A stretch of DNA of 58,423 bases from a virus: IMG/VR virus record IMGVR_UViG_3300023174_000191, positions 1 through 58,423 of that record; one strand, written 5' to 3'. Positions 8,191 to 55,636 of this stretch are shown here, piece by piece (the first letter of the stretch is position 1; every line of letters starts with the position of its first letter). The position numbers and the translations under genes were made by a program. The notes under the pieces are model-generated. The model was not told the origin of the DNA. It saw only the letters and a list, made by a program, of their open reading frames with translations, and searched no databases.

Positions 8191-11100
8191 TTAATTATAA
8201 GAAATTTTTGAGCTTCCGTTTGTTTTAGTAATTTCAATTAATTTATCTACTACATCTCGCATAGAATCAATATGTGATATTACCAGCATAAATGAAAATT
8301 GAGTTTTTAAATAATCAAATAAATTGAACATTGAGTTTAAATTATCAGAATCTAAAACGCCAAATCCTTCATCAATAGCTAGAAAATTTGGTCTAGGCAA
8401 TGAAGATACATTTATCAATGCAGTTCTAATTGCTAATGAAGAAACAAACTTTTCCATTCCAGAAGTTAATTCAATTGGCCAAAAGTTGTCTTCATCATAC
8501 ACAATGTAACAGTTAATATTTTTACCATCCATTTCAAGCATCAAACTAAATTCAACTAATTGACTTAATATATTATTTATTTCTTGCTCAATATATGGAA
8601 CTGCTGAAGTAATTAAATCGTAAGGTATACCGTCTCTATTAACAGCCTCTAAATAATATTGATAAAATTTATACTGCTGCGCTAAGTCTTTTAATTTTGA
8701 AATTGACTCTTCAGCCTTTTCTTTTAATTTGTCAGATAGTAATAATTTCGAATGACAGGTTAAAATATCATCATTAAGTATACTTAATTCATCTTTTAAA
8801 TCAGTCACTTTTTTATTTAAAGAATCTATCTGACCATTTATAGTCATGTTTTCTTTGATAACTTCTTCCTGTTTAAAATATTCTGCTATTTTAGTATTAA
8901 CTTCCCCTAATCTAGAAACTCCTTGAAGATGTTTAGTTGCAATTTGATGCAATTCAGATTCAATTGAAGATTTCAAAGATGATTTTTTGTGAATATCTTG
9001 ATTTAATTTATTATAATCTTCTTTTTCTTGTATAGAAGGTTTTAACTGAGTTATTTTATCTTTGATAATTTGTAAATCATCTACTATTTTTTGAGCATGT
9101 TTTTTATCTTCTTCTATCGAAGCTTTTGTAGCAATAGCATCTTTAACAAATACATTATCCATACAAAAAGAACAATTCTCATCATATTTTAAATCATCAA
9201 GTTTTTTCATTTTGTCTAACTTATTACTGACTTCGGCTTTAAGTTTTGCTACTTGACCATATAAATTTTTTTCTGTGTTGTGCAGACCATCAAGAACATC
9301 AATTCGAGCTTGAATTTCATTAATGTTAAATGCTTTTATACTTTCTTGCAATTCATCTAGCGATTCCTTACATACTTTTAATTCACCTAACTTATCCGAT
9401 TCACTTTTTTCTAATTGACTTAAGAATAAAATAGCTTGATCTTTTAATTCATCTAATCTATCTTTATTTGCAATTGATGTATCGACAGGAACTAAATTAG
9501 AAGTTAAAGATAAAATTTCTTGATTTAGAGTATCTATTTTATTTTCTAATTCACTTTTATCTATTTGATAATCTTTATGCTCTTTTGTGTATGCCTCAAT
9601 ATCATTAACTGCTTGTGCTAGTTGTGAACCAAAGTCTTGACGCTGATATTCTTTTACTAGCGTAGCAACTTCTTTAATGTCATCGTTAGCAATTCTATAT
9701 AAATCTTCAAAGATATTAATATCTAAGAATTGAGCTAGCAAATCTTTTCTGTCTTTTTGAGCCATGTCAATAAAACCTGAATTATTATTTTGTACTGACA
9801 ATGCAGTTAGCACAAAATCTTCATAAGTTCCTAACAGACCTCGTATATGGTCATTAGTTTCACTTCTCTCTTTTCCATTTAATGATGTTATTTGACCTAA
9901 ATCATCTACAGAATAGAAATTAACATCAACTCGCACGTGATTACCTCTTCCTCGAGTACCTATTTTTTCAATAAAGAAATTTTTACCATCTAATTCAAAA
10001 TTGAATTTACATGTAAATGAAGCAGATCTATTATTTAGAACAGCGACTGCTTTTGAAGTTCGACCGCATTTGTCGAATATACAATATGTTATAGCATCTA
10101 ATAGTGTAGACTTTCCAGAAGCGTTTGGAGCAAATAATCCATACACTCCTTTCATGTTAGTAAAATCTATAGAGTTACCTTTTCCATAACTAAACATATT
10201 TGAAAACTCAAAGCTTTTTGGAATCCAAGATACATTTCGATTTATTTCTAATGTAGGTAATCCTGAATTTACAGTTCTATTAACATGACGAACTCCATCT
10301 AAAACATCATCTTCTAAAGTAAATTTATTTTCTAGATATTTAGTAATTAATGTATTTTGATATTCTACATCCCTTACATCTCCTATATTAATTTTTTGTA
10401 CCCTAGATTTGTTTTGAGTTAAATCATTAATTTTTTGAACTGTATATTCTTCTACATTGAATTTAGATTTTATACTTCCGATTATAGATTTTAAATCGGC
10501 AGACTCTGTGTTTTGAGACTTGATTCTTAATCTAATCAATTTATCTGATAACTCATCTGGAATTGGGTTATATTTGCTATCATTAACTTCTAAAGTATAA
10601 TAACACATATCATTTTCAATTTCCATAAATTCTGCTTGAGATGTATTTGTGTCCCAAACTAACATTCCATGAATTAAAGCTTCTGCATAATTTTGTTGAA
10701 TAAGTGAACCTGGATATGCAATAGTTTTTTCTTCGTTTAAAAACTGATTAGGTTTGTGAATATCTCCTAAAAGTGTTAAATCATACCCTTTAAATGTATC
10801 AATATCAACATGGTCATTTACCAATCTAAATCCTATATCAGTTAAAGCATTATTTACTGCTCCGTGATGTAATGCAATTTTAAAATCTCCTTCAAATTCA
10901 TCTGCTTTGATAAAATCTTTAGGTTTATCAAAAACTGACATTACTGTAAAATGTTTATCAGCTAATTTGTAAACTCCAGACTCTTTTAAATAATATAAAT
11001 TAGGGTGATTTAGTGCATTTACAATAGGCGTTAAAGCATCTAATCTAGATTTATTATTTAGGTTACAATCATGGTTTCCTGTAATTAATATTGTAGGAGC

Positions 11101-11355
11101 TAAATCAGCAAACATCTTAAGAAACTCTTGAACTGACTGAACTAATTCAGGTGTCATATCTGTTTTAGCATGCACAATATCGCCTCCTAAAAAGATAATA
11201 TCATTTGGGCCAATTGTTTTTTTAATTTTATCTACAGTTCTATTAAATACTGTTAAATATTCTTCATGTCGTTTAAGATTTCTAATGTGAATATCAGCTA
11301 TGTGATATATTTTATCTATCTTATCTATACTGGTAACTAAATTTTCTATATACAT
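8191..11355 (-). CDS. fused Mre11-Rad50 type recombination nuclease/ATPase (gp47-gp46 fusion)
   Basis: A single 1054-residue reading frame holds both subunits that T4 makes as gp47 and gp46. Residues 1 to about 340 are a calcineurin-like nuclease: ADIHIR (20-25), GGDIVH (57-62), GNHD (93-96), HHGAV (163-167) and GDIH (197-200). From about 375 follows an SMC/Rad50 ATPase: Walker A with GKST near 414-417, two coiled-coil arms, a zinc-hook CSFC (728-731) at the turn, an ABC signature (LTSGMEK) and Walker B AIDEG near 993-997. It should resect DNA ends for recombination-dependent replication. Its ATG overlaps the primase stop region, so it is expressed with primase. The fusion is the unusual point. 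Confidence 0.93.
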   Translation of the reverse strand: MYIENLVTSIDKIDKIYHIADIHIRNLKRHEEYLTVFNRTVDKIKKTIGPNDIIFLGGDIVHAKTDMTPELVQSVQEFLKMFADLAPTILITGNHDCNLNNKSRLDALTPIVNALNHPNLYYLKESGVYKLADKHFTVMSVFDKPKDFIKADEFEGDFKIALHHGAVNNALTDIGFRLVNDHVDIDTFKGYDLTLLGDIHKPNQFLNEEKTIAYPGSLIQQNYAEALIHGMLVWDTNTSQAEFMEIENDMCYYTLEVNDSKYNPIPDELSDKLIRLRIKSQNTESADLKSIIGSIKSKFNVEEYTVQKINDLTQNKSRVQKINIGDVRDVEYQNTLITKYLENKFTLEDDVLDGVRHVNRTVNSGLPTLEINRNVSWIPKSFEFSNMFSYGKGNSIDFTNMKGVYGLFAPNASGKSTLLDAITYCIFDKCGRTSKAVAVLNNRSASFTCKFNFELDGKNFFIEKIGTRGRGNHVRVDVNFYSVDDLGQITSLNGKERSETNDHIRGLLGTYEDFVLTALSVQNNNSGFIDMAQKDRKDLLAQFLDINIFEDLYRIANDDIKEVATLVKEYQRQDFGSQLAQAVNDIEAYTKEHKDYQIDKSELENKIDTLNQEILSLTSNLVPVDTSIANKDRLDELKDQAILFLSQLEKSESDKLGELKVCKESLDELQESIKAFNINEIQARIDVLDGLHNTEKNLYGQVAKLKAEVSNKLDKMKKLDDLKYDENCSFCMDNVFVKDAIATKASIEEDKKHAQKIVDDLQIIKDKITQLKPSIQEKEDYNKLNQDIHKKSSLKSSIESELHQIATKHLQGVSRLGEVNTKIAEYFKQEEVIKENMTINGQIDSLNKKVTDLKDELSILNDDILTCHSKLLLSDKLKEKAEESISKLKDLAQQYKFYQYYLEAVNRDGIPYDLITSAVPYIEQEINNILSQLVEFSLMLEMDGKNINCYIVYDEDNFWPIELTSGMEKFVSSLAIRTALINVSSLPRPNFLAIDEGFGVLDSDNLNSMFNLFDYLKTQFSFMLVISHIDSMRDVVDKLIEITKTNGSSKISYN

Positions 11356-12300
11356 TTATCCGAATAATTTATATTCAATGAATTTTTCAAAGGTCAGTGG
11401 AGGTGTTTGTTTTATTAAACTACACATTTTTTCAAATCCTATTTCAGCAGGATCTTTTTCTTGCAAATCTACAAAATAAACTTGAACTCCATTATTCATG
11501 AAATATTCTGCATGTTGCAATGCTTGTTTTTGAGCGTCTTTATCTAAACAAATATACAACTGACTTACTTTATTTTCAATAATTTTCTTACGTAAGTCTT
11601 CTGATATTGTCTTTCCGAATAATGGTATTGCATTTCTTCTAACTGCAATAGCGTCAAATGAGCCTTCTACTAAAACTAAAGGAAGTGCCCAATTTATAAA
11701 CAATTCAAATCCAACACAATCTTTAGATACGTCTGGATTCTTATGTTTAAAGTCTACATCATAATAAGCTCTTCCTACAAAATAATTTAATTTACCTTCT
11801 GTATCATAAGAAGGGATAATTATTTTTTTAGCATATTCGCCTGACTCGCAATATCCTATGCCATATTTTACTATTTCAGAAAGAGTTATTTTTCTTTTTG
11901 ATCTTAAGTAATGTATAGCATTTTTATACTCTGTTGTCTCAGAATGTTTATATAAAGGAATATACTCTTTAGGCAGGTCTAGAGGTGTCGTAGATGCTGT
12001 ATAAGCGGAGTTCGTAGATGAGCTATATTTGGGTTGGGTGTTAAGTAGCTTATACAATTCTGCTATCTTATCTCTGCTTACATTTAGTGCTTTAAACAGC
12101 GTAGATATCTTTTTTCCAGACTTGTTGCAAACCCAACAATGCCATGGATTTTCTCCTTTATCATTAGTTACTGTCTGCACTTCTAGTTTTCTTCTAGTAG
12201 AGTGACAAAACGGGCAGGAGTGAGCTTGGTTACCTTTATTAGTAACTTTGCCTTTTCCTAAAACCGAATCTATTAAATGAATTAACTTTGTATTTACCAT
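11356..12300 (-). CDS. DnaG-type primase (T4 gp61-like)
   Basis: A primase of about 314 residues. The N-terminal zinc ribbon is visible as CPFC and CWVC (about residues 29-58), followed by a linker of about 50 residues and a TOPRIM domain with the glutamate in LVLVEGSFDAIAV and the DxD-type motif CLDKDAQ. It makes RNA primers for lagging-strand synthesis with the phage helicase, which is not in this window. I chose the ATG at 12300; an in-frame TTG one codon earlier is less likely. The 3' end abuts the nuclease/ATPase start. The length is close to T4 gp61 (342). Confidence 0.88.
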   Translation of the reverse strand: MVNTKLIHLIDSVLGKGKVTNKGNQAHSCPFCHSTRRKLEVQTVTNDKGENPWHCWVCNKSGKKISTLFKALNVSRDKIAELYKLLNTQPKYSSSTNSAYTASTTPLDLPKEYIPLYKHSETTEYKNAIHYLRSKRKITLSEIVKYGIGYCESGEYAKKIIIPSYDTEGKLNYFVGRAYYDVDFKHKNPDVSKDCVGFELFINWALPLVLVEGSFDAIAVRRNAIPLFGKTISEDLRKKIIENKVSQLYICLDKDAQKQALQHAEYFMNNGVQVYFVDLQEKDPAEIGFEKMCSLIKQTPPLTFEKFIEYKLFG

Positions 12301-12337
12301 CAAGACTAATATATAATAATCTTTCGCATAATCAAAA

Positions 12338-12745
12338 TTAAATTAGCCAATCATCTGGAATGTCTTTATCTGCGAATTTAAACCCATGCTTAATACACCA
12401 ATCTGCATAAGTAGTTTTAGATGCTTTTGATATTTTAGTTTTAGAATTTTGAAATAAAAACCTAATATCTAAGTTTGGATTTTGTGCTTTGATAAGTAAA
12501 TGTTTTTTCCTGTCATCAGTCAAAAATCTACCTTTTGTCTCGACAAAAATGCCATTAGGCAATTTAAAGTCAGGATGATATTTGTGATGCGTTTCAGGTT
12601 TAGTATATTGTATAATATGTTTTTCATATTCTCCATCTATACCCCTTGATTTCAAAGATTCGTCGATAGTCATTTCTAAACCACTTCTAAATCCGTATTT
12701 TGCAGCGACTGCTTTTACGCTGTAAGTTGCTCTTCTTTTTGCCAT
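12338..12745 (-). CDS. endonuclease I, T7 gp3-type Holliday junction resolvase
   Basis: A 135-residue protein that matches the phage endonuclease I family over its whole length. The catalytic set is in place: E24 in FRSGLE, D59 in YHPDF, E69 and K71 in VETKG. The C-terminal part carries the family pattern SKTTYADWCIKHGFKF. The family (149 residues in T7) resolves four-way junctions and branched DNA before packaging. T4 uses the unrelated gp49 for this job, so a T7-type enzyme beside a T4-type primase and gp46/47 is a mosaic feature. A 34-nt gap separates it from primase. Confidence 0.92.
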   Translation of the reverse strand: MAKRRATYSVKAVAAKYGFRSGLEMTIDESLKSRGIDGEYEKHIIQYTKPETHHKYHPDFKLPNGIFVETKGRFLTDDRKKHLLIKAQNPNLDIRFLFQNSKTKISKASKTTYADWCIKHGFKFADKDIPDDWLI

Positions 12746-41240: not shown

Positions 41241-41313
41241 TGGTAGCGGTCGCCGGATTCGAACCGAACTTTAGGGTTATGAGCCCTTCGTGCTACCTTT
41301 ACACTACCCCGCG
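41241..41313 (-). tRNA. tRNA-CAU, initiator-like (fMet)
   Basis: The anticodon loop is CTCATAA, so the anticodon is CAU. The anticodon stem has three stacked G-C pairs (GGG/CCC) and the 5' end is CGCGGGG with a C1-U72 mismatch, both typical of initiator tRNA. The acceptor has further mismatches at positions 6-67 and 7-66. It is the only tRNA here that encodes CCA. Confidence 0.7.
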
Positions 41314-42575: not shown

Positions 42576-42609
42576 AATAGATAATATTTAGTATTTGTTA
42601 ATAAATTAG

Positions 42610-42681
42610 TGGAGCTACCGAGATTCGAACTCGGAATAACAGAGTGCAAGTCTATCGTGATGCCAATTTCACTATAACCCC
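42610..42681 (-). tRNA. tRNA-Ala (UGC)
   Basis: Cloverleaf with 7-bp acceptor (GGGGTTA/TAGCTCC), T-loop TTCGAAT and anticodon loop CTTGCAC, anticodon TGC. No CCA encoded. A second Ala gene lies at 45691-45762. Confidence 0.85.
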
Positions 42682-42686
42682 TTTTG

Positions 42687-42758
42687 TACTGCCACGGAGA
42701 ATCGAACTCCGATTTTATGGATGAAAACCATAGGTCCTGACCGTTAGACGATGGCAGC
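42687..42758 (-). tRNA. tRNA-Glu (UUC)
   Basis: Acceptor GCTGCCA/TGGCAGT, T-arm CGGAG-TTCGATT-CTCCG, anticodon loop TTTTCAT with anticodon TTC. A second Glu gene lies at 45895-45966. Confidence 0.88.
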
Positions 42759-42764
42759 AATTTG

Positions 42765-42852
42765 AGGAAGATGTGGGATTCGAACCCACGGAGGATTTGA
42801 CCCCTCTCCGGTTTTCAAGACCGGTGCAATAGACCAACTCTGCCAACCTTCC
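42765..42852 (-). tRNA. tRNA-Ser (UGA)
   Basis: Class II tRNA with a long variable arm, T-arm GTGGG-TTCGAAT-CCCAC and anticodon loop CTTGAAA (TGA). It is the first tRNA after the promoter at 42866. Confidence 0.87.
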
Positions 42853-42865
42853 CTTTTAATTCTTC

Positions 42866-42898
42866 ATAAATATAAGATAACCTTTTGGAGTATCCTAA
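42866..42898 (-). promoter_or_regulatory. early promoter of the Ser-Glu-Ala tRNA transcript
   Basis: Minus strand TTAGG, 17 nt, CTTATATTTAT. Its -33 part overlaps the stop codon of the 308-residue gene. The 40 nt at 42862-42901 are identical to 48385-48424. Confidence 0.8.
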
Positions 42899-43821
42899 TC
42901 TAAATTATAAATAGTTTCACATTCAGCGAATAATTTTTCATATCGTGCGTCAAATTCTCCTAACTGATTTAACGAATTTACTACCACGTCTAATACTAGA
43001 GTTCTAGTAAATTTATTATCATAATATTTTTTCAGCCCCCAAGAATGTTTTATAGCATTTGCTATTTGTGCCGTTTCTATATTACTATCTAAAGGCGGAA
43101 CCCATTCTATTCCATTTGAATCAATATCTCCTCCAATATGAGGTTGATATACTGATTTTAGAATTTCGCTTTTTGTTAAATTTAAATCATCTATTAGCAC
43201 AGGCAATAACCTTTGTTCTATAAACATTGTACTGCAATCTTCATTAACAAAATTAAATTGTTTTGAATGAGTTTGTTCAATTATCTTACTTGAAATTTCA
43301 AACCATTTTGTAATCAATTCTTTAAAATTAGAATTAAAGCATACTATAGCACAATTTACTGGGTTTATATTCCAATTATAATTTACATCGTCAATCCAAT
43401 TAATTGGATCTGGATATACATTAAAAGGATCATATTCGGCAATAGCTTCTTGATGATAAAATACAAAATCAGTTTCATTACTAATTAAATTAGGCTCTGA
43501 AATCCATAGATCAGTATCAAATATACAAAATCTAGTTTCTTCACGAGCTAATTTATTAGCTAAATATATTTTACAAAAACTCCAAAATTTATTTGAGTAT
43601 TCTTTATATGGATTAGTTTCTAAAAACTGAGTATTTATTTCGTCATACTCTTCATCTAATCCATATTTGCTAATAGAATCTAAATATCTTTGATTGCAAT
43701 ATAATTTAACTGACCCGTAATTCTTTTTCCAAAATTTAATAGAAGCTAATTGAACTAAATAATTTATAGCTTCAAACTCGCCATCATCTTTTGTTTGATA
43801 ATAAACATGATATCCTGTCAT
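42895..43821 (-). CDS. glycosyltransferase-like protein (DUF6734 type)
   Basis: A 308-residue protein inserted between two tRNAs. The early region (KFWKKNYGSVKLYCNQRYLD) and CIFDTDLWISEPN (about 97-109) have the DxD-containing layout of GT-A sugar transferases, and HSWGLKKYYDNKF near 265 fits the family end. I know this style as DUF6734, whose members occur in Bacteroidota and their phages. It could modify a host glycan or a virion part; no substrate can be told. It is transcribed with the tRNA array. Confidence 0.6.
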   Translation of the reverse strand: MTGYHVYYQTKDDGEFEAINYLVQLASIKFWKKNYGSVKLYCNQRYLDSISKYGLDEEYDEINTQFLETNPYKEYSNKFWSFCKIYLANKLAREETRFCIFDTDLWISEPNLISNETDFVFYHQEAIAEYDPFNVYPDPINWIDDVNYNWNINPVNCAIVCFNSNFKELITKWFEISSKIIEQTHSKQFNFVNEDCSTMFIEQRLLPVLIDDLNLTKSEILKSVYQPHIGGDIDSNGIEWVPPLDSNIETAQIANAIKHSWGLKKYYDNKFTRTLVLDVVVNSLNQLGEFDARYEKLFAECETIYNLD

Positions 43822-43836
43822 AACTTATTTATTTTG

Positions 43837-43907
43837 AGGCGCGAGCTGGATTCGAACCAGCATAACAGATTTTGCAGACCTGAACCTAACCATTCAGTCA
43901 TCACGCC
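43837..43907 (-). tRNA. tRNA-Cys (GCA)
   Basis: Acceptor GGCGTGA/TCGCGCC, T-arm GCTGG-TTCGAAT-CCAGC, anticodon loop CTGCAAA (GCA). It is the 3'-most tRNA of the main array. Confidence 0.87.
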
Positions 43908-43914
43908 ATTATTG

Positions 43915-43986
43915 AACTCCTAATAGGACTCGAACCTATATCATCTGGTCCGTAGCCAAACGTTTTTCCAATTAAACTATAAGAGC
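43915..43986 (-). tRNA. tRNA-Arg (ACG)
   Basis: Acceptor GCTCTTA/TAGGAGT, T-loop TTCGAGT, anticodon loop CTACGGA (ACG), which would need A34-to-I editing by the host enzyme to read all CGN codons. Confidence 0.85.
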
Positions 43987-44001
43987 ATTTTTTTAATAGT
44001 T

Positions 44002-44169
44002 TTAAATAATTTTTTCGGTTCCATTATTTTCTCTTATGTTAAAATGAAATCCAAATATTCTAATTTGAAAACCTTTTATGTAAGTATACTTTTTAAAATA
44101 AAACACCCACCATCCAATTTTTTTAATTGGGAACCATCTCGTACCTATGTACGTAACATCGATTTTCAT
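44002..44169 (-). CDS. 55-residue basic aromatic peptide in the tRNA array
   Basis: An ATG at 44169 opens a 55-residue frame (MKIDVTYIGTRWFPIKKIGW, then FYFKKYTYIKG) rich in Lys, Tyr, Phe, Trp and Ile. A longer frame would run into the upstream tRNA, so this start is chosen. It may be membrane-active or bind nucleic acid; no family is known. Confidence 0.5.
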   Translation of the reverse strand: MKIDVTYIGTRWFPIKKIGWWVFYFKKYTYIKGFQIRIFGFHFNIRENNGTEKII

Positions 44170-44187
44170 ACTTTTATTTTTAATTTG

Positions 44188-44261
44188 TACCCAAGGCGAG
44201 ACTCGAACTCGCAAAATCTAGATCCTAAGTCTAGCGCCTATACCAATTCGGCTACTCGGGC
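44188..44261 (-). tRNA. tRNA with UAG anticodon (Leu by code) but class I shape
   Basis: Acceptor GCCCGAG/CTTGGGT, anticodon stem CTAGA/TCTAG with loop CTTAGGA (anticodon TAG), T-arm GCGAG-TTCGAGT-CTCGC. The variable region has only 5 nt, while bacterial Leu tRNAs have a long arm. Confidence 0.8.
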
Positions 44262-44268
44262 AATTTCG

Positions 44269-44340
44269 TACCCCATCCAGGAATCGAACCTAGAACTAAT
44301 CTTTAGAAGAGATTTGTTATATCCGTTTAACTAATAGGGC
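44269..44340 (-). tRNA. tRNA-Arg (UCU)
   Basis: Acceptor GCCCTAT/ATGGGGT, anticodon stem AATCT/AGATT with loop CTTCTAA (TCT), reading AGA/AGG, the common Arg codons of AT-rich genomes. Confidence 0.87.
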
Positions 44341-44344
44341 ATAG

Positions 44345-44429
44345 AGGAAAGAAGAGGTATCGAACCCCATGCCAATTAAGGCACGATTTGCTTAGCAAGC
44401 AATCTTGATCCCTGATCAATTTACTTTCC
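44345..44429 (-). tRNA. tRNA-Ser (GCU)
   Basis: Class II, with a variable arm (GTGCC/GGCAT), anticodon loop TTGCTAA (GCT) and T-loop TTCGATA. It reads AGC/AGU. Confidence 0.84.
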
Positions 44430-44435
44430 AATTTG

Positions 44436-44520
44436 TACACCTGGCCGGACTCGAACCGGCACCCCCCTTACGGAGGATTGGATTTTAAGTCCAACGTGTC
44501 TACCATTCCACCACAGGTGC
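44436..44520 (-). tRNA. tRNA-Leu (UAA)
   Basis: Class II with a G/C-rich variable arm (CCTCC/GGGGG), acceptor GCACCTG/CAGGTGT, anticodon stem TTGGA/TCCAA and loop CTTAAAA (TAA). It is the one clearly normal Leu tRNA in the array. Confidence 0.88.
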
Positions 44521-44526
44521 ATTAAG

Positions 44527-44600
44527 TGTGAAAGATGGGACTCGAACCCACAATCGCCTGAACCACAATCAGGTGCTTTACCAATTCAGCTACAATCACC
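44527..44600 (-). tRNA. tRNA-His (GUG)
   Basis: Anticodon stem CCTGA/TCAGG, loop TTGTGGT (GTG). An extra 5' G (position -1) is present, as in bacterial His tRNA. Two U-U pairs occur in the acceptor stem. Confidence 0.82.
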
Positions 44601-44610
44601 ATGTATCTTG

Positions 44611-44682
44611 TTGGGTTACTAGGATTCGAACCTAGACTAAAACAGTCAAAGTGTTTTGTGCTAACCGTTACACTATAACCCA
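44611..44682 (-). tRNA. tRNA-Gln (UUG)
   Basis: Acceptor TGGGTTA/TAACCCA, T-arm CTAGG-TTCGAAT-CCTAG, anticodon loop CTTTGAC (TTG). Confidence 0.88.
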
Positions 44683-44689
44683 AAATTTG

Positions 44690-44757
44690 TACCGAGTAAT
44701 GGTATCGAGCCATTCTAGAAATAGATATGAGCCATCTCCGGTCCCTGACCACTCGGC
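44690..44757 (-). tRNA. tRNA-CAU with shortened D-arm
   Basis: Acceptor GCCGAGT/ACTCGGT (7 bp) and anticodon loop CTCATAT (CAT) are clear, but only 14 nt separate the acceptor from the anticodon stem, against about 19 normally. The T-loop starts with C (CTCGATA). The total is 68 nt. It might be an Ile tRNA with modified C34 or a Met tRNA. Confidence 0.68.
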
Positions 44758-44767
44758 AATTAAATTG

Positions 44768-44840
44768 TGGGAACTGCAGGAATCGAACCTGCTCCTTTAG
44801 TTCTTCAGACTAACGCGCGCACCAGCTACGCCAAGTTCCC
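44768..44840 (-). tRNA. tRNA-Phe (GAA)
   Basis: Acceptor GGGAACT/AGTTCCC, T-arm GCAGG-TTCGATT-CCTGC, anticodon stem TTAGT/ACTAA with loop CTGAAGA (GAA). Confidence 0.88.
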
Positions 44841-44953
44841 AATGCCTGGCTCGAAACCAGGCTTCTCATATAAAGGCATTTACATTTTTACTCAGCTTCC
44901 TTCGTTATCCATGACACAGCACATTGCTATCTGGCATGGAAAGTCAAATGCCT
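44841..44953 (-). ncRNA. candidate structured spacer RNA with T-arm-like hairpin
   Basis: This tRNA-free gap folds well. AGGCATTT (5' end, 44953-44946) pairs with AAATGCCT (44881-44874) over 8 bp. Inside, TCCATG pairs with CATGGA and AGCA with TGCT. At the 3' side is a GCCTGG-TTTCGAG-CCAGGC hairpin that looks like a tRNA T-arm. No acceptor or anticodon arm is seen, so it is not a normal tRNA. Confidence 0.5.
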
Positions 44954-44992
44954 CAAAAACAAACACATAAAGAAAAAGTTCAAAACCATTTG

Positions 44993-45064
44993 CGGTCTAT
45001 TCGGGATTCGAACCCGAGTCTTCTACGTGACAGGCAGACATCCATACCCCTGGACCAATAGACC
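44993..45064 (-). tRNA. tRNA-Asp (GUC), copy 1
   Basis: Acceptor GGTCTAT/ATAGACC, T-arm TCGGG-TTCGAAT-CCCGA, anticodon loop CTGTCAC (GTC). It differs at only two positions from a second copy at 45613-45684. Confidence 0.9.
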
Positions 45065-45072
45065 AATTTTTG

Positions 45073-45146
45073 TGTCCTATACAGGATTTGAACCTGTGAC
45101 CTTCTCGTTATGAGCGAGCTGCTCTGACCAGCTGAGCTAAAAGGAC
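45073..45146 (-). tRNA. tRNA-Met (CAU), elongator-like
   Basis: Acceptor GTCCTTT/ATAGGAC, standard D-arm GCTCAGCTGGTCAGAGC, anticodon stem CTCG/CGAG with loop CTCATAA (CAT), T-loop TTCAAAT. Elongator Met is most likely; Ile with lysidine at C34 is the alternative. Confidence 0.85.
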
Positions 45147-45152
45147 ATTTTG

Positions 45153-45223
45153 TACCTCGTAGTGGAATCGAACCACTGCCCTTTGCATGTAAAACAAATA
45201 CGCTTCCATTACGCCAACGAGGC
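45153..45223 (-). tRNA. tRNA-Val (UAC)
   Basis: Acceptor GCCTCGT/ACGAGGT, anticodon stem TTTGT/GCAAA with loop TTTACAT (TAC), T-arm AGTGG-TTCGATT-CCACT. Confidence 0.86.
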
Positions 45224-45288
45224 AAATCTAATTCTATGCGTCGGTGCTTATTAAGCGGTGATCTATGAATTAGTAACAGTCTTATTCG

Positions 45289-45359
45289 TACCCCCTGAAG
45301 GTAATGCTCCTTCTTCCCGATATTAAAAGTATCGTGCTTCACTTTAAAGCCTAGAGGGC
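45289..45359 (-). tRNA. divergent tRNA-Lys (UUU) without a TTCRA T-loop
   Basis: A full cloverleaf of 71 nt: acceptor GCCCTCT/AGGGGGT, D-stem GCTT/AAGC, anticodon stem CGATA/TATCG with loop CTTTTAA (TTT), T-stem GAAGG/CCTTC. The T-loop is AGCATTA in place of the near-universal TTCRANN, so a standard search may miss it. It is the only Lys candidate in the window. Confidence 0.65.
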
Positions 45360-45365
45360 TAATAG

Positions 45366-45441
45366 TCTGATAGGCAGGATTCGAACCTGCGTGCTCCTAC
45401 GTCCAAGGTAGGCTAGATAAACCGGACTCCTATACTACCAG
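45366..45441 (-). tRNA. tRNA-Pro (UGG)
   Basis: Acceptor CTGGTAG/CTATCAG, anticodon stem CCTAC/GTAGG with loop CTTGGAC (TGG), T-arm GCAGG-TTCGAAT-CCTGC. Confidence 0.87.
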
Positions 45442-45452
45442 AAGTATATTTG

Positions 45453-45526
45453 TAGTGATAATAGGACTCGAACCTATATCCTCCTCGGTATCAGCGAGGT
45501 GCTCCAACCAATTGAGCTATACCACT
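45453..45526 (-). tRNA. tRNA-Ile (GAU)
   Basis: Acceptor AGTGGTA/TATCACT, D-arm GCTCAATTGGTTGGAGC, anticodon stem CCTCG/CGAGG with loop CTGATAC (GAT). Confidence 0.88.
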
Positions 45527-45532
45527 ATATTG

Positions 45533-45606
45533 AGCCGAGGACAGGACTCGAACCGACGTCTTTGGCTTATGAGACCAAGCTGGGACCATCTCCAGTCTAA
45601 CTCGCG
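45533..45606 (-). tRNA. tRNA-CAU, imperfect acceptor
   Basis: Anticodon stem TTGGT/GCCAA with loop CTCATAA (CAT) and T-loop TTCGAGT are clear. The acceptor (CGCGAGT with CCTCGGC) forms only about four pairs and the T-stem is imperfect. It is the fourth CAU gene; edges are approximate. Confidence 0.62.
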
Positions 45607-45612
45607 ATATTG

Positions 45613-45684
45613 CGGTCTATTCGGGATTCGAACCCGAGTCTTCTACGTGACAGGCAGGCATCCATTCCCCTGGACCAATAGACC
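45613..45684 (-). tRNA. tRNA-Asp (GUC), copy 2
   Basis: Same arms as the copy at 44993-45064, with two base differences in the D-arm and anticodon-stem region. The flanking 3' GCA is also kept, which points to recent duplication. Confidence 0.9.
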
Positions 45685-45690
45685 TTATTG

Positions 45691-45762
45691 TGGAGCTATG
45701 GAGAATCGAACTCCAATTTATGAATTGCAAATCCATTGTAATAGCCGTTATACTATAACCCC
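45691..45762 (-). tRNA. tRNA-Ala (UGC), second gene
   Basis: Acceptor GGGGTTA/TAGCTCC as in the first Ala tRNA, anticodon stem ATGGA/TTCAT with loop TTTGCAA (TGC), T-arm TGGAG-TTCGATT-CTCCA. Confidence 0.85.
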
Positions 45763-45766
45763 AATT

Positions 45767-45892
45767 AAATTAAATAAATAAGTCTTCGTCTCTCCTAGCT
45801 GGCCCACTTGAAGATTACTCTTCGTGCCCGACTCGAACGGGAATGCTAGCGACTCAATCCAGCTTGCCCATAAATGGGTATTTATTTAATTT
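45767..45892 (-). ncRNA. candidate structured spacer RNA closed by a 14-bp stem
   Basis: The ends (45892-45879 and 45780-45767) pair over 14 A-T rich base pairs. Within lie AGCTGG/CCAGCT (6 bp, 60 nt apart), a T-arm-like hairpin CCCG-TTCGAGT-CGGG, and GAAGA-GTAA-TCTTC with a GNRA-type loop. No anticodon arm is found. The combination of outer, middle and local stems suggests a real fold. It lies between tRNA-Glu and tRNA-Ala genes. Confidence 0.58.
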
Positions 45893-45894
45893 TG

Positions 45895-45966
45895 TACTAC
45901 CGAGGAGAATCGAACTCCCGTTTCAACAGTGAAAGTGTTGTGTCCTAGCCGTTAGACGACGGTAGC
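45895..45966 (-). tRNA. tRNA-Glu (UUC), second gene
   Basis: Acceptor GCTACCG/CGGTAGT, anticodon stem CAACA/TGTTG with loop CTTTCAC (TTC), T-loop TTCGATT. It is not a close copy of the first Glu gene. Confidence 0.88.
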
Positions 45967-45973
45967 AAATTTG

Positions 45974-46045
45974 AGCGAGTAGACGGAATCGAACCGACAT
46001 CATCTGGTTGGAAGCCAGAGATAATAACCGTTATACGATACTCGC
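45974..46045 (-). tRNA. tRNA-Gly (UCC)
   Basis: Acceptor GCGAGTA/TACTCGC, anticodon stem TCTGG/CCAGA with loop CTTCCAA (TCC). A second gene with this anticodon is at 47136-47209. Confidence 0.88.
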
Positions 46046-46054
46046 AAATTAAAG

Positions 46055-46126
46055 AGCCTCTACAAGGAATCGAACCCTGTTATCTTGTGTACAAAACAAG
46101 TGCATCACCATTTATGCTTTAGAGGC
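46055..46126 (-). tRNA. tRNA-Thr (UGU)
   Basis: Acceptor GCCTCTA/TAGAGGC, anticodon stem CTTGT/ACAAG with loop TTTGTAC (TGT), T-loop TTCGATT. Confidence 0.87.
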
Positions 46127-46206
46127 CATTTAAACTACAAGCGGTTCTCGTATCCGTTCTGCAGGTTAGCCCCTGCTGCTTTGCAATAAGCTAATTCCAA
46201 TTAATT

Positions 46207-46713
46207 TTAAAAGAATAGAAAGGTCTCCCACTCTTTTGGTATGTAAGTCATAGATCTCATTAACATTAAATAGTGAGGTCTTTTTGGCTCTGGAATTTCC
46301 TTACCGTACTCCTCCAATGTTAAATCTGCCTTTTCATGATTACATGGACGACAAGCGGTAACTAAATTATCCCAAGCGTCTTTTCCTCCTTTTGATTGAG
46401 GTATAACATGATCTAATGTCAATAGTTTTTGATTTGAACTACCGCAATACACACATTCATAATTGTCTCTTTTATAAACGTTTTCTCTTGTTAAAGGAAC
46501 TCTATTAATATGCTGTTTAACATATTTAGCAACTCTAATAATAGAAGGTTTGTATATAATTAATTCAGGATTAATTAAGCTAAACGTTTCTGGATGGTCA
46601 GCTATCACTTCGGCATTGCCTTTATAACAAATTACAAACGCTCTTTCTGTGCTTATAACTGACCTCGCAGTAAAACTTGCATCTACTACAAGTGCTTTTT
46701 GATACTTACTCAT
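46207..46713 (-). CDS. HNH endonuclease in the tRNA array
   Basis: A 168-residue protein with a full HNH site: YECVYCG, TLDHVIPQSKGG, WDNLVTACRPCNHEKAD (about residues 87-130), including the two CxxC zinc knuckles. The first 80 residues are a small alpha/beta part typical of phage and host HNH proteins (KALVVDASFTARSVISTERA). Such nucleases move as free-standing homing genes and often sit beside phage tRNAs. It is transcribed with the array; the coding sequence looks intact. Confidence 0.88.
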   Translation of the reverse strand: MSKYQKALVVDASFTARSVISTERAFVICYKGNAEVIADHPETFSLINPELIIYKPSIIRVAKYVKQHINRVPLTRENVYKRDNYECVYCGSSNQKLLTLDHVIPQSKGGKDAWDNLVTACRPCNHEKADLTLEEYGKEIPEPKRPHYLMLMRSMTYIPKEWETFLFF

Positions 46714-46745
46714 CGCTTACTAATTTATATTATTATACTTATTTG

Positions 46746-46816
46746 CACGCCAGGAAGGATTCGAACCTTCATCATCGGTTTTGGAGACCGGTATGCTACC
46801 ATTGCACCACTGACGC
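46746..46816 (-). tRNA. tRNA-Trp (CCA)
   Basis: Acceptor GCGTCAG/CTGGCGT, anticodon stem CGGT/ACCG with loop CTCCAAA (CCA), T-arm GAAGG-TTCGAAT-CCTTC. Confidence 0.88.
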
Positions 46817-46822
46817 ATTTTG

Positions 46823-46894
46823 AGGGCTGGGAGAATTTCGAAATCTCGACCCGCTGCCTAACAAACAGCCGCTCTGCCTCTGAGCTACCAACCC
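46823..46894 (-). tRNA. tRNA-Asn (GUU)
   Basis: Acceptor GGGTTGG/CCAGCCC, D-arm GCTCAGAGGCAGAGC, anticodon stem GCTGT/GCAGC with loop TTGTTAG (GTT). The T-loop appears enlarged to 8-9 nt (TTTCGAAAT). Confidence 0.84.
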
Positions 46895-46906
46895 AATTAA
46901 TATTTG

Positions 46907-46987
46907 TGGGATACTGTGGAATCGAACCACACCTTCTTACAGAACGATTTTACAGACCGCTTATCACACCAGTGACTGAAGCATCCC
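46907..46987 (-). tRNA. tRNA-Tyr (GUA)
   Basis: Class II with variable arm, acceptor GGGATGC/GTATCCC, anticodon loop CTGTAAA (GTA), T-arm TGTGG-TTCGATT-CCACA. Confidence 0.86.
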
Positions 46988-46993
46988 AATTTT

Positions 46994-47110
46994 GACTACT
47001 ACCTGACTCCTTTCGAACTTTGCAGGCTCGTATCATTCATTCTTAGTAGTCCAAGGCGTTACGCGTCCATCTAGTAACTTTAATTTTCTTGAGTCCGGAT
47101 AAGCGCTTAT
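46994..47110 (-). ncRNA. candidate structured spacer RNA (two hairpin units)
   Basis: The 3' unit (47051-46994) is closed by GACTACTA/TAGTAGTC (8 bp) with an inner CCTG/CAGG stem. The 5' unit contains the palindromic hairpin GATAA-GCGC-TTATC inside GAGT/ACTC, and GCG-TTA-CGC between them. No anticodon arm can be drawn. It lies between the Tyr and Gly tRNAs. Confidence 0.45.
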
Positions 47111-47135
47111 CAACTCTAGGACATTACCTTGTTTG

Positions 47136-47209
47136 AGCGGTGCAAGGGATTCGAACCCTTACCTCGAGTTTGGAAGACTCATATGCTAACCGTTAAACAC
47201 CAGCACCGC
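47136..47209 (-). tRNA. tRNA-Gly (UCC), second gene
   Basis: Acceptor GCGGTGC/GCACCGC, anticodon stem GAGT/ACTC with loop CTTCCAA (TCC). It is the first tRNA after the array promoter. Confidence 0.88.
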
Positions 47210-50784: not shown

Positions 50785-50892
50785 TAGTCAGGACAGGAAT
50801 CGAACCTGTATGTTAATACCAAAGCTCCACGATATTAACCATTGCTTTATAGGAACTTTCTAATTAGCGTCTACCAATTCCGCCACCTGACT
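50785..50892 (-). tRNA. tRNA-Leu-like RNA, 108 nt, anticodon not assignable
   Basis: The acceptor (AGTCAGG/CCTGACT, perfect), the Leu-type D-arm (GCGGAATTGGTAGACGC) and the T-arm (ACAGG-TTCGATT-CCTGT) are all good. Between D-arm and T-arm there are 57 nt; GTTAATA and TATTAAC form a 7-bp arm, but no 5-bp anticodon stem with U33 can be drawn. It may be a tRNA with an insertion, or decayed. Its 5' end overlaps the stop codon of the metallophosphoesterase gene by 2 nt. Confidence 0.6.
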
Positions 50893-51532
50893 ATTTTTCG
50901 TCTCTAGAATGTCTTTCTCTAGAATCTCTATTACTTAATAATTCTAAAACTTCATCTATATGGTAAGGTCTAAATTCAGAAGAACCGCACATTCCAACAT
51001 CCATTCTTCTGCCTTCTCCAAATCTAGCATCGCCTTTCAAATGCTGATGACCATGTAACATAAATGCTCCTCTTGGCATATTGTTCCAAGATACAATTGG
51101 GTAATGACAAAGAACAAATTTGTACTTTTCAGTACCGGTTTTTGCTTCTAGAGTCACATCTAGTTCCTCATAGTGAGCAACATGAGTGAAATGTTTTCTG
51201 ACATTGTCTTTGTTTTTTTCAATGTGATGATCGTGATTTCCTAAAATCAATACAATGTTTTTACATTTGATTTGAGAACGAAAAACTTCAATATTTTCAA
51301 TTCCTCCAAAAGAAAAATCTCCAAGGTGTATTAACCAATCATTTTCTCCAACACAATTATTAATGTTATCAACAATGTGTGCATTCATTGTTTCGAGGTC
51401 TGGAAAATTACGAGTAGCCTTAATAAACTCTTCTTCATCTCCTGTGTTCCATTTAGAAACTCCTCTACAAATATTGGTATGTCCAAAATGGGAATCGGAT
51501 GTAAACCAAATATTTTTTGCTACTATTTTCAT
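50891..51532 (-). CDS. metallophosphoesterase (calcineurin-like)
   Basis: A 213-residue enzyme with all five blocks: TSDSHFGH (11-18), HLGDFSFGG (69-77), LGNHDHH (97-103), LCHYP (about 140) and HGHQH (about 158). Members of this group act on phosphodiesters, including 2',3'-cyclic or bis-nucleotide substrates. Early promoter 51551-51583 is just upstream, and the tRNA-Leu-like RNA follows in the same transcript. A role in RNA end repair is an inference from its neighbours. Confidence 0.85.
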   Translation of the reverse strand: MKIVAKNIWFTSDSHFGHTNICRGVSKWNTGDEEEFIKATRNFPDLETMNAHIVDNINNCVGENDWLIHLGDFSFGGIENIEVFRSQIKCKNIVLILGNHDHHIEKNKDNVRKHFTHVAHYEELDVTLEAKTGTEKYKFVLCHYPIVSWNNMPRGAFMLHGHQHLKGDARFGEGRRMDVGMCGSSEFRPYHIDEVLELLSNRDSRERHSRDEK

Positions 51533-55548: not shown

Positions 55549-55563
55549 ACTTTTTTAATTTTG

Positions 55564-55636
55564 GAACCGGTAAGGGATTCGAACCCTTATCTAGGCAGAT
55601 CTATGCCACCCATGTTACCAATTACACTAACCGATT
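55564..55636 (-). tRNA. tRNA with UAG anticodon, class I, A33
   Basis: Every arm has standard length: acceptor AATCGGT/ACCGGTT, D-stem GTGT/ACAT, anticodon stem GGTGG/CTGCC, T-arm AAGGG-TTCGAAT-CCCTT. The loop is CATAGAT, giving anticodon TAG but A instead of the near-invariant U33. It stands alone within protein genes. Confidence 0.72.

Follow-up and report, generated by a model that had tools for sequence, protein, structure and literature searches.

A fused SbcD-SbcC (Mre11-Rad50) gene common in environmental phages, and its split alleles in relatives

Fusions of Mre11 and Rad50 in one protein have been known since 2011, when Yoshida, Claverie and Ogata described thirteen of them, including Mimivirus R555 and examples from Bacillus phage 0305phi8-36, C. 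kluyveri and Deferribacter plasmids, and some eukaryotes (PMC3175470). R555-like genes were abundant in aquatic viral fractions, marine homologues were located on phage-like scaffolds that also carried primase and T7 gp3-like endonuclease genes, and fusions in general were not monophyletic (PMC3175470). Other phages keep the subunits separate, as the first-pass annotation of the DNA studied here had stated for T4 and its relatives and as we find for T4-, SPO1- and T5-like phages. The T4-like gp47-gp46, T5-like D12-D13 and Herelleviridae pairs, together with SbcD-SbcC of E. coli, match a fusion in their two functions and gene order but are two polypeptides, with an ABC signature of SGGE, SEGE or STGQ.

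We analysed a 58,423-nucleotide virus record from IMG/VR (the window), which holds a further example of the type described in 2011; phage Mre11-Rad50 fusions as such are not new. Both domains lie in one open frame with Mre11 first, the defining feature of the 2011 fusions, with which the window protein also shares its domain order, a putative helix-loop-helix (HLH) region and a linker of similar length. Like the marine homologues, it has primase and gp3-like endonuclease neighbours. R555 is longer, at 1351 aa against about 1050 aa in the window's phage clade. The single uninterrupted 1054-residue frame had been reported without a strand; it is on the minus strand, the plus strand over 8191-11355 being full of stops. 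No second copy of the fused gene occurs in the 58,423-base record, which carries at 50891-51532 a second, stand-alone phosphoesterase (PHROG 547, E 1.8e-42). The features are:

8191..11355, minus strand: fused SbcD-SbcC (Mre11-Rad50) gene, 1054 aa plus stop, ATG start
10432..11319, minus strand: SbcD/Mre11 nuclease and cap domains, residues 13-308, from VIA-align of the model and Pfam Metallophos
10756..10767, minus strand: nuclease motif V, GDIH, residues 197-200, just upstream of the split site in relatives
10267..10368, minus strand: putative Rad50-binding HLH, residues 330-363, assigned by position and length
10228..10266, minus strand: linker of 13 residues, 364-376, from the AF2 model and alignment
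8194..10227, minus strand: SbcC/Rad50 part, residues 377-1054, matching positions 1-1047 of E. coli SbcC
10108..10131, minus strand: Walker A, APNASGKS, residues 409-416
9163..9174, minus strand: zinc hook, CSFC, residues 728-731, with C728 and C731 invariant in 56 of 56 relatives
8452..8463, minus strand: ABC signature, SGME, residues 965-968 (canonical SGGE/SGGQ)
8368..8385, minus strand: Walker B, FLAIDE, residues 991-996 (full motif FLAIDEG)
11356..12303, minus strand: DNA primase (PHROG 47), directly adjacent to the fused gene
12338..12745, minus strand: T7-type endonuclease I (Holliday-junction resolvase; PF05367, E 1.4e-57)

The presence of a Mre11-type nuclease and a Rad50-type ATPase in this one protein was confirmed by Pfam, PHROG, motifs and model folds. 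Pfam places Metallophos at 15-202 (E 8e-11) and AAA_23 at 385-618 (2e-8), with SbcC_Walker_B at 964-1014 falling below the family cut-off (E 0.0012), and the ATPase part (about 385-1053) matches the 'SbcC-like' PHROG 77 at 1.9e-53. An AF2 model of one chain, built from 56 aligned sequences (mean pLDDT 83.6, pTM 0.46), orders the protein as nuclease, cap, putative HLH, 13-residue linker and whole SMC-type ATPase; as modelled, a full SbcD is followed in the chain by a full SbcC. VIA-align superposes residues 13-308 on S. aureus SbcD 7dog_A (Z 25.2, 273 aligned, 3.4 A) and E. coli SbcD 4m0v_A (Z 23.9), and residues 377-1054 on E. coli SbcC 7yzp_C (Z 27.9, 423 aligned, 7.7 A). The ATPase half, which has long helices in the model, begins at the equivalent of E. 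coli SbcC residue 1.

The metallophosphatase set, previously called complete, does include motifs I-V (D21xH23, GD59xxH62, GN94HD, H164 and GD198IH200) and the metal ligands D21, H23, D59, N94, H164 and H200, but it is not canonical: Asp198 stands where P. furiosus Mre11 has its metal-binding His206, and His62 replaces the third Asp of GDxxD. The same two active-site changes (His206 to Asp, GDxxD Asp to His) were reported for R555 (PMC3175470), compared here by its published description. Likewise, the Walker A, zinc-hook CxxC, signature and Walker B listed in the first-pass annotation are all present, with departures: Ala takes the place of the first Walker A Gly, and the signature, in the context TSGME (964-968), differs from the S-G-G-E/Q that is usual rather than defining. 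A D-loop at 1001-1002 and a switch His at 1028 complete the ATPase motifs. The motifs of both halves are nearly all invariant in the 56 aligned relatives.

The phage fusions share the signature substitution. In a comparison alignment of 22 rows (17 fused, 5 separate pairs), SGM(E/Q) or GGME occurs in all 17 fused rows and in none of the separate pairs, so that every fused row, but no separate pair, has Met at the third position; all 55 aligned relatives that reach this position also have Met at the signature Gly. T4-like gp46 and T5-like D13 depart from the canonical signature as well. GDIH is found in every fused row except PAU (GHIH), and the separate T5-like D12 protein has GDLH. We found no earlier report in the open-access literature of an SGME-type signature common to phage fusions.

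At the junction, helices modelled at 330-344 and 349-363 (block pLDDT 77-94, after a low-confidence loop at 310-323) lie where the Rad50-binding HLH belongs. The linker, earlier placed near residues 330-375, is thus confined in the model to 364-376. The N359-F384 stretch is constant in length across 56 of 56 aligned relatives, other stretches varying by 2 to 8 residues, and N374 (100%), W377 (91%) and P379 (89%) are conserved around the linker. These relatives are a sample favouring good matches, and the constant length supports, without proving, a fixed element; an alignment including the jumbo-phage fusions gives that group other linker lengths. In the T. maritima complex the Mre11 C-terminus lies about 28 A from the Rad50 N-terminus, and 9-12 residues would bridge the gap (PMC3175470), compared with 13 here.

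We consider it likely that the fused protein is the phage's own SbcCD/Mre11-Rad50 end-processing nuclease, a homodimeric M2R2-type machine serving recombination-dependent replication and repair. Two fused chains would form the ordinary assembly, with the nuclease domains paired, the ATPase heads closing on ATP, the zinc hook joining the coiled-coil tips, and each HLH docked at the coiled-coil base of its own chain. By trimming or opening ends and hairpins of phage DNA, the enzyme would let the phage RecA/UvsX invade, as the counterpart of T4 gp47-gp46 in recombination-dependent replication and break repair. Docking in cis, the dimer, the activity and the pathway are what we infer from these features. 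Forced 1:1 stoichiometry, which had been offered as an argument for a changed assembly, carries little force: the canonical Mre11-Rad50 complex is M2R2 and already 1:1, so fusion imposes no new stoichiometry. Of the two outcomes then proposed, that the assembly must differ or that the linker allows the same geometry, the second is favoured by the putative HLH helices, the 13-residue linker and the gap of about 28 A.

A different machine, in which the nuclease acts in trans on another chain's ATPase or the chains stand in a row and no M2R2 forms, is unlikely. A covalent tie could in principle swap partners, and residues of the nuclease and the ABC signature do differ from those of canonical enzymes; the putative HLH helices and the cap are nevertheless kept, and the linker length suits the known geometry (PMC3175470). 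The same substitutions could also mark a nuclease-dead or ATPase-altered derivative, for example a DNA-end tether or an antagonist of host SbcCD, with Asp198 in place of a metal-binding His and the signature Gly changed to Met in all 55 relatives that reach it. We think this distinctly unlikely, given that the other metal ligands, the Walker A Lys, the Walker B Asp/Glu and the switch His are invariant in 55-56 sequences and that GDxH also occurs in the separate T5-like D12 protein. With the departures Asp198 and SGME, the activity of this putative enzyme is nonetheless a prediction. Cleavage of the chain into SbcD and SbcC by a protease after translation, the fusion being a means to equal amounts, is very improbable: a linker between domains would be reachable, but nothing direct points to cleavage, and this linker, fixed in length with conserved residues around it, is unlike a dispensable spacer. 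No relative in the phage fusion family has a stop or start there.

A first IMG/VR scan for the fused protein gave 29 loci, and a scan with alignment found at least 559 loci encoding relatives, of which the best 80 were kept. The same domain order, sought in other phage sequences, was found at IMG/VR loci, in Microcystis phage Mel-JY01 and in huge and jumbo phages; the fusion is genuine and, among environmental phages, very common. Residues 300-430 are in one frame in 111 of 113 fetched loci, the other two being contig pieces that start after the junction. It can be taken as practically certain that no sequencing or assembly error, the refutation proposed earlier, removed a stop and start between two ordinary genes, because independent contigs keep the junction in one frame in all 111 loci containing it, the published Mel-JY01 and LR756508 genomes among them, and its residues are conserved and its length constant. 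Two-protein relatives had been the other proposed refutation; none is divided at the junction, but some are divided inside the nuclease, at codon ~205-212 (see below).

One 132-kb contig (L005) encodes a protein 98% identical to the window fusion. A search of the phage collection gave no near-identical DNA for the first 25 kb of the window, and cellular genomes gave only six matches, all on MAG contigs, which may be phage contigs binned with MAGs. Each of eight IMG/VR records searched, and Mel-JY01, contains a single match to the fused protein, with two further weak PHROG 77 matches in Mel-JY01; the records being fragments, this weakly suggests that separate SbcC/SbcD genes are absent beside the fusion.

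The window's primase frame stops at the base adjoining the ATG of the fused gene. Among 103 loci with enough upstream DNA, primase lies near the fusion in 101 and T7-type endonuclease I in 81, and RecA/UvsX is present in 6 of 6 larger relative records. By analogy, this set of genes would suit T4-like recombination-dependent replication. Elsewhere, ARAGORN finds 25 tRNA genes arrayed at 42609-47209 of the minus strand, with an HNH endonuclease gene (46207-46713) among them, and one more tRNA gene at 55563-55636; Rfam adds another at 41245-41312, missed by ARAGORN.

Full-length homologues occur in Mel-JY01 (190 kb; WWT39521.1, 42% identity, annotated 'AAA domain containing protein') and in huge phage LR756508 (36-44% identical). 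Both have a primase-like frame upstream of the fused gene; in LR756508 that gene differs in that a homing endonuclease lies between its two pieces. Jumbo phages pT24, PTm1, MA9V-1 and PAU have fusions of about 1300 aa annotated 'metallo-phosphoesterase'. These, and that of the 735-kb phage LR756501, show the same order, SGM(E/Q)-type signatures and nearly always GDIH, but are longer, have another linker length and are 22-26% identical where aligned. Besides its fused gene, LR756501 (L003) has a separate, stronger SbcC-family match at 670999-672753, with stops read through; it is possibly broken or differently coded. The open-access literature yielded no papers on Mel-JY01 or on jumbo-phage Mre11-Rad50 fusions.

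In the tree of the 22 rows, a branch with support 88/88 (not starred) has the fused rows to one side. A topology constrained to group the separate phage pairs with the main fused clade is weakly rejected (p 0.022). With long branches present, this tree favours, short of proof, one origin of the phage fusions. In E. coli and in a T5-like phage, the separate genes follow this same order, with overlaps of 4 and 14 nt, respectively; a small change would therefore suffice for fusion.

Just after GDIH, the fused gene is in two pieces in twelve contigs of at least eight lineages (L140-L144 forming one), and two more contigs (L137 and L138) run as far as the same tail and stop shortly beyond it. The split regions, with class names for the endonucleases assigned by eye, are:

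L002:5580-6700: apparently intact endonuclease frame, 305 aa
L140:554-1541: apparently intact EDxHD-like endonuclease frame, 253 aa (L140-L144)
L146:4501-5532: apparently intact HNH-like endonuclease frame, 286 aa
L026:5577-6100: shortened endonuclease frame
L115:3863-4281: remnants
L116:3866-4160: remnants
L145:4501-4761: nothing recognisable between the pieces (69 nt)
L147:3540-3733: nothing recognisable between the pieces (2 nt)

The upstream piece gains a conserved, acidic tail of ~26-34 residues, like EEIEVDExELxxYLxxGWE, and the downstream piece, with an ATG of its own, carries a basic head like MxKKIxxxRKKPxIxYxGS. To judge from these conserved ends, the two pieces may reassemble. The split is kept in four lineages although the endonuclease is gone or decayed.

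Three unsplit contigs (L010/L038, L011, L018/L047) have both ends joined in frame, with 46 residues from GDIH to GSLIQQ against 24-25 otherwise. At ~5560-5740 of L010/L011 this is seen as a 21-residue in-frame insert made of tail and head sequences, modelled in L010 with low confidence as an extended hairpin; it is either a scar of refusion or the form before insertion. On a quickly built tree that omits the split-site loop, the split and unsplit states change 6 times, at least 4 of them by well-supported branches, and the state therefore arose or spread more than once.

Rfam found no group I introns at the L002 and L026 interruptions. Apart from the endonuclease frame, the inserts there amount to only ~140-160 nt, and the protein ends of the pieces are conserved; for these reasons gene fracture is preferred over introns. 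By eye, split inteins were also rejected, with no Cys/Ser/Ala at the N-terminal junction and no Asn before the downstream piece. We judge the chances evenly balanced that the fused gene has been rebroken after GDIH with homing endonucleases, that the conserved tail and head pair, a single active site being restored by two proteins, that the split outlives the endonuclease and can fuse back to leave the 21-residue hairpin, and that the state turns over repeatedly. Events of the same kind are known in T4-type phages in nrdA, gene 60 and gene 43 (PMC2988022); we found no report in the open-access literature of a SbcD gene split by homing endonucleases. As a separate observation, L012 (8280-9098) and L030 (2695-3516) have an endonuclease-like frame of ~270 aa after an intact fused gene. 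At its end this frame repeats the C-terminus of the fused gene (SHIDSMRDVVDKLIEITKTNG..), while the 3' end of the fused gene proper is different; probably a replacement end came in with an insertion close to the switch-His codon.

Our data bear out the 2011 suggestion that many of the abundant R555-like fusions of aquatic samples are phage genes. They supply many phage examples of a complex that usually consists of two co-purified subunits, in one experiment-friendly gene shorter than R555, and, with its fixed 13-residue linker, the single-chain SbcCD lends itself to testing whether the HLH acts in cis. The split alleles would offer a natural assay of the tolerance of the nuclease active site to rearrangement.
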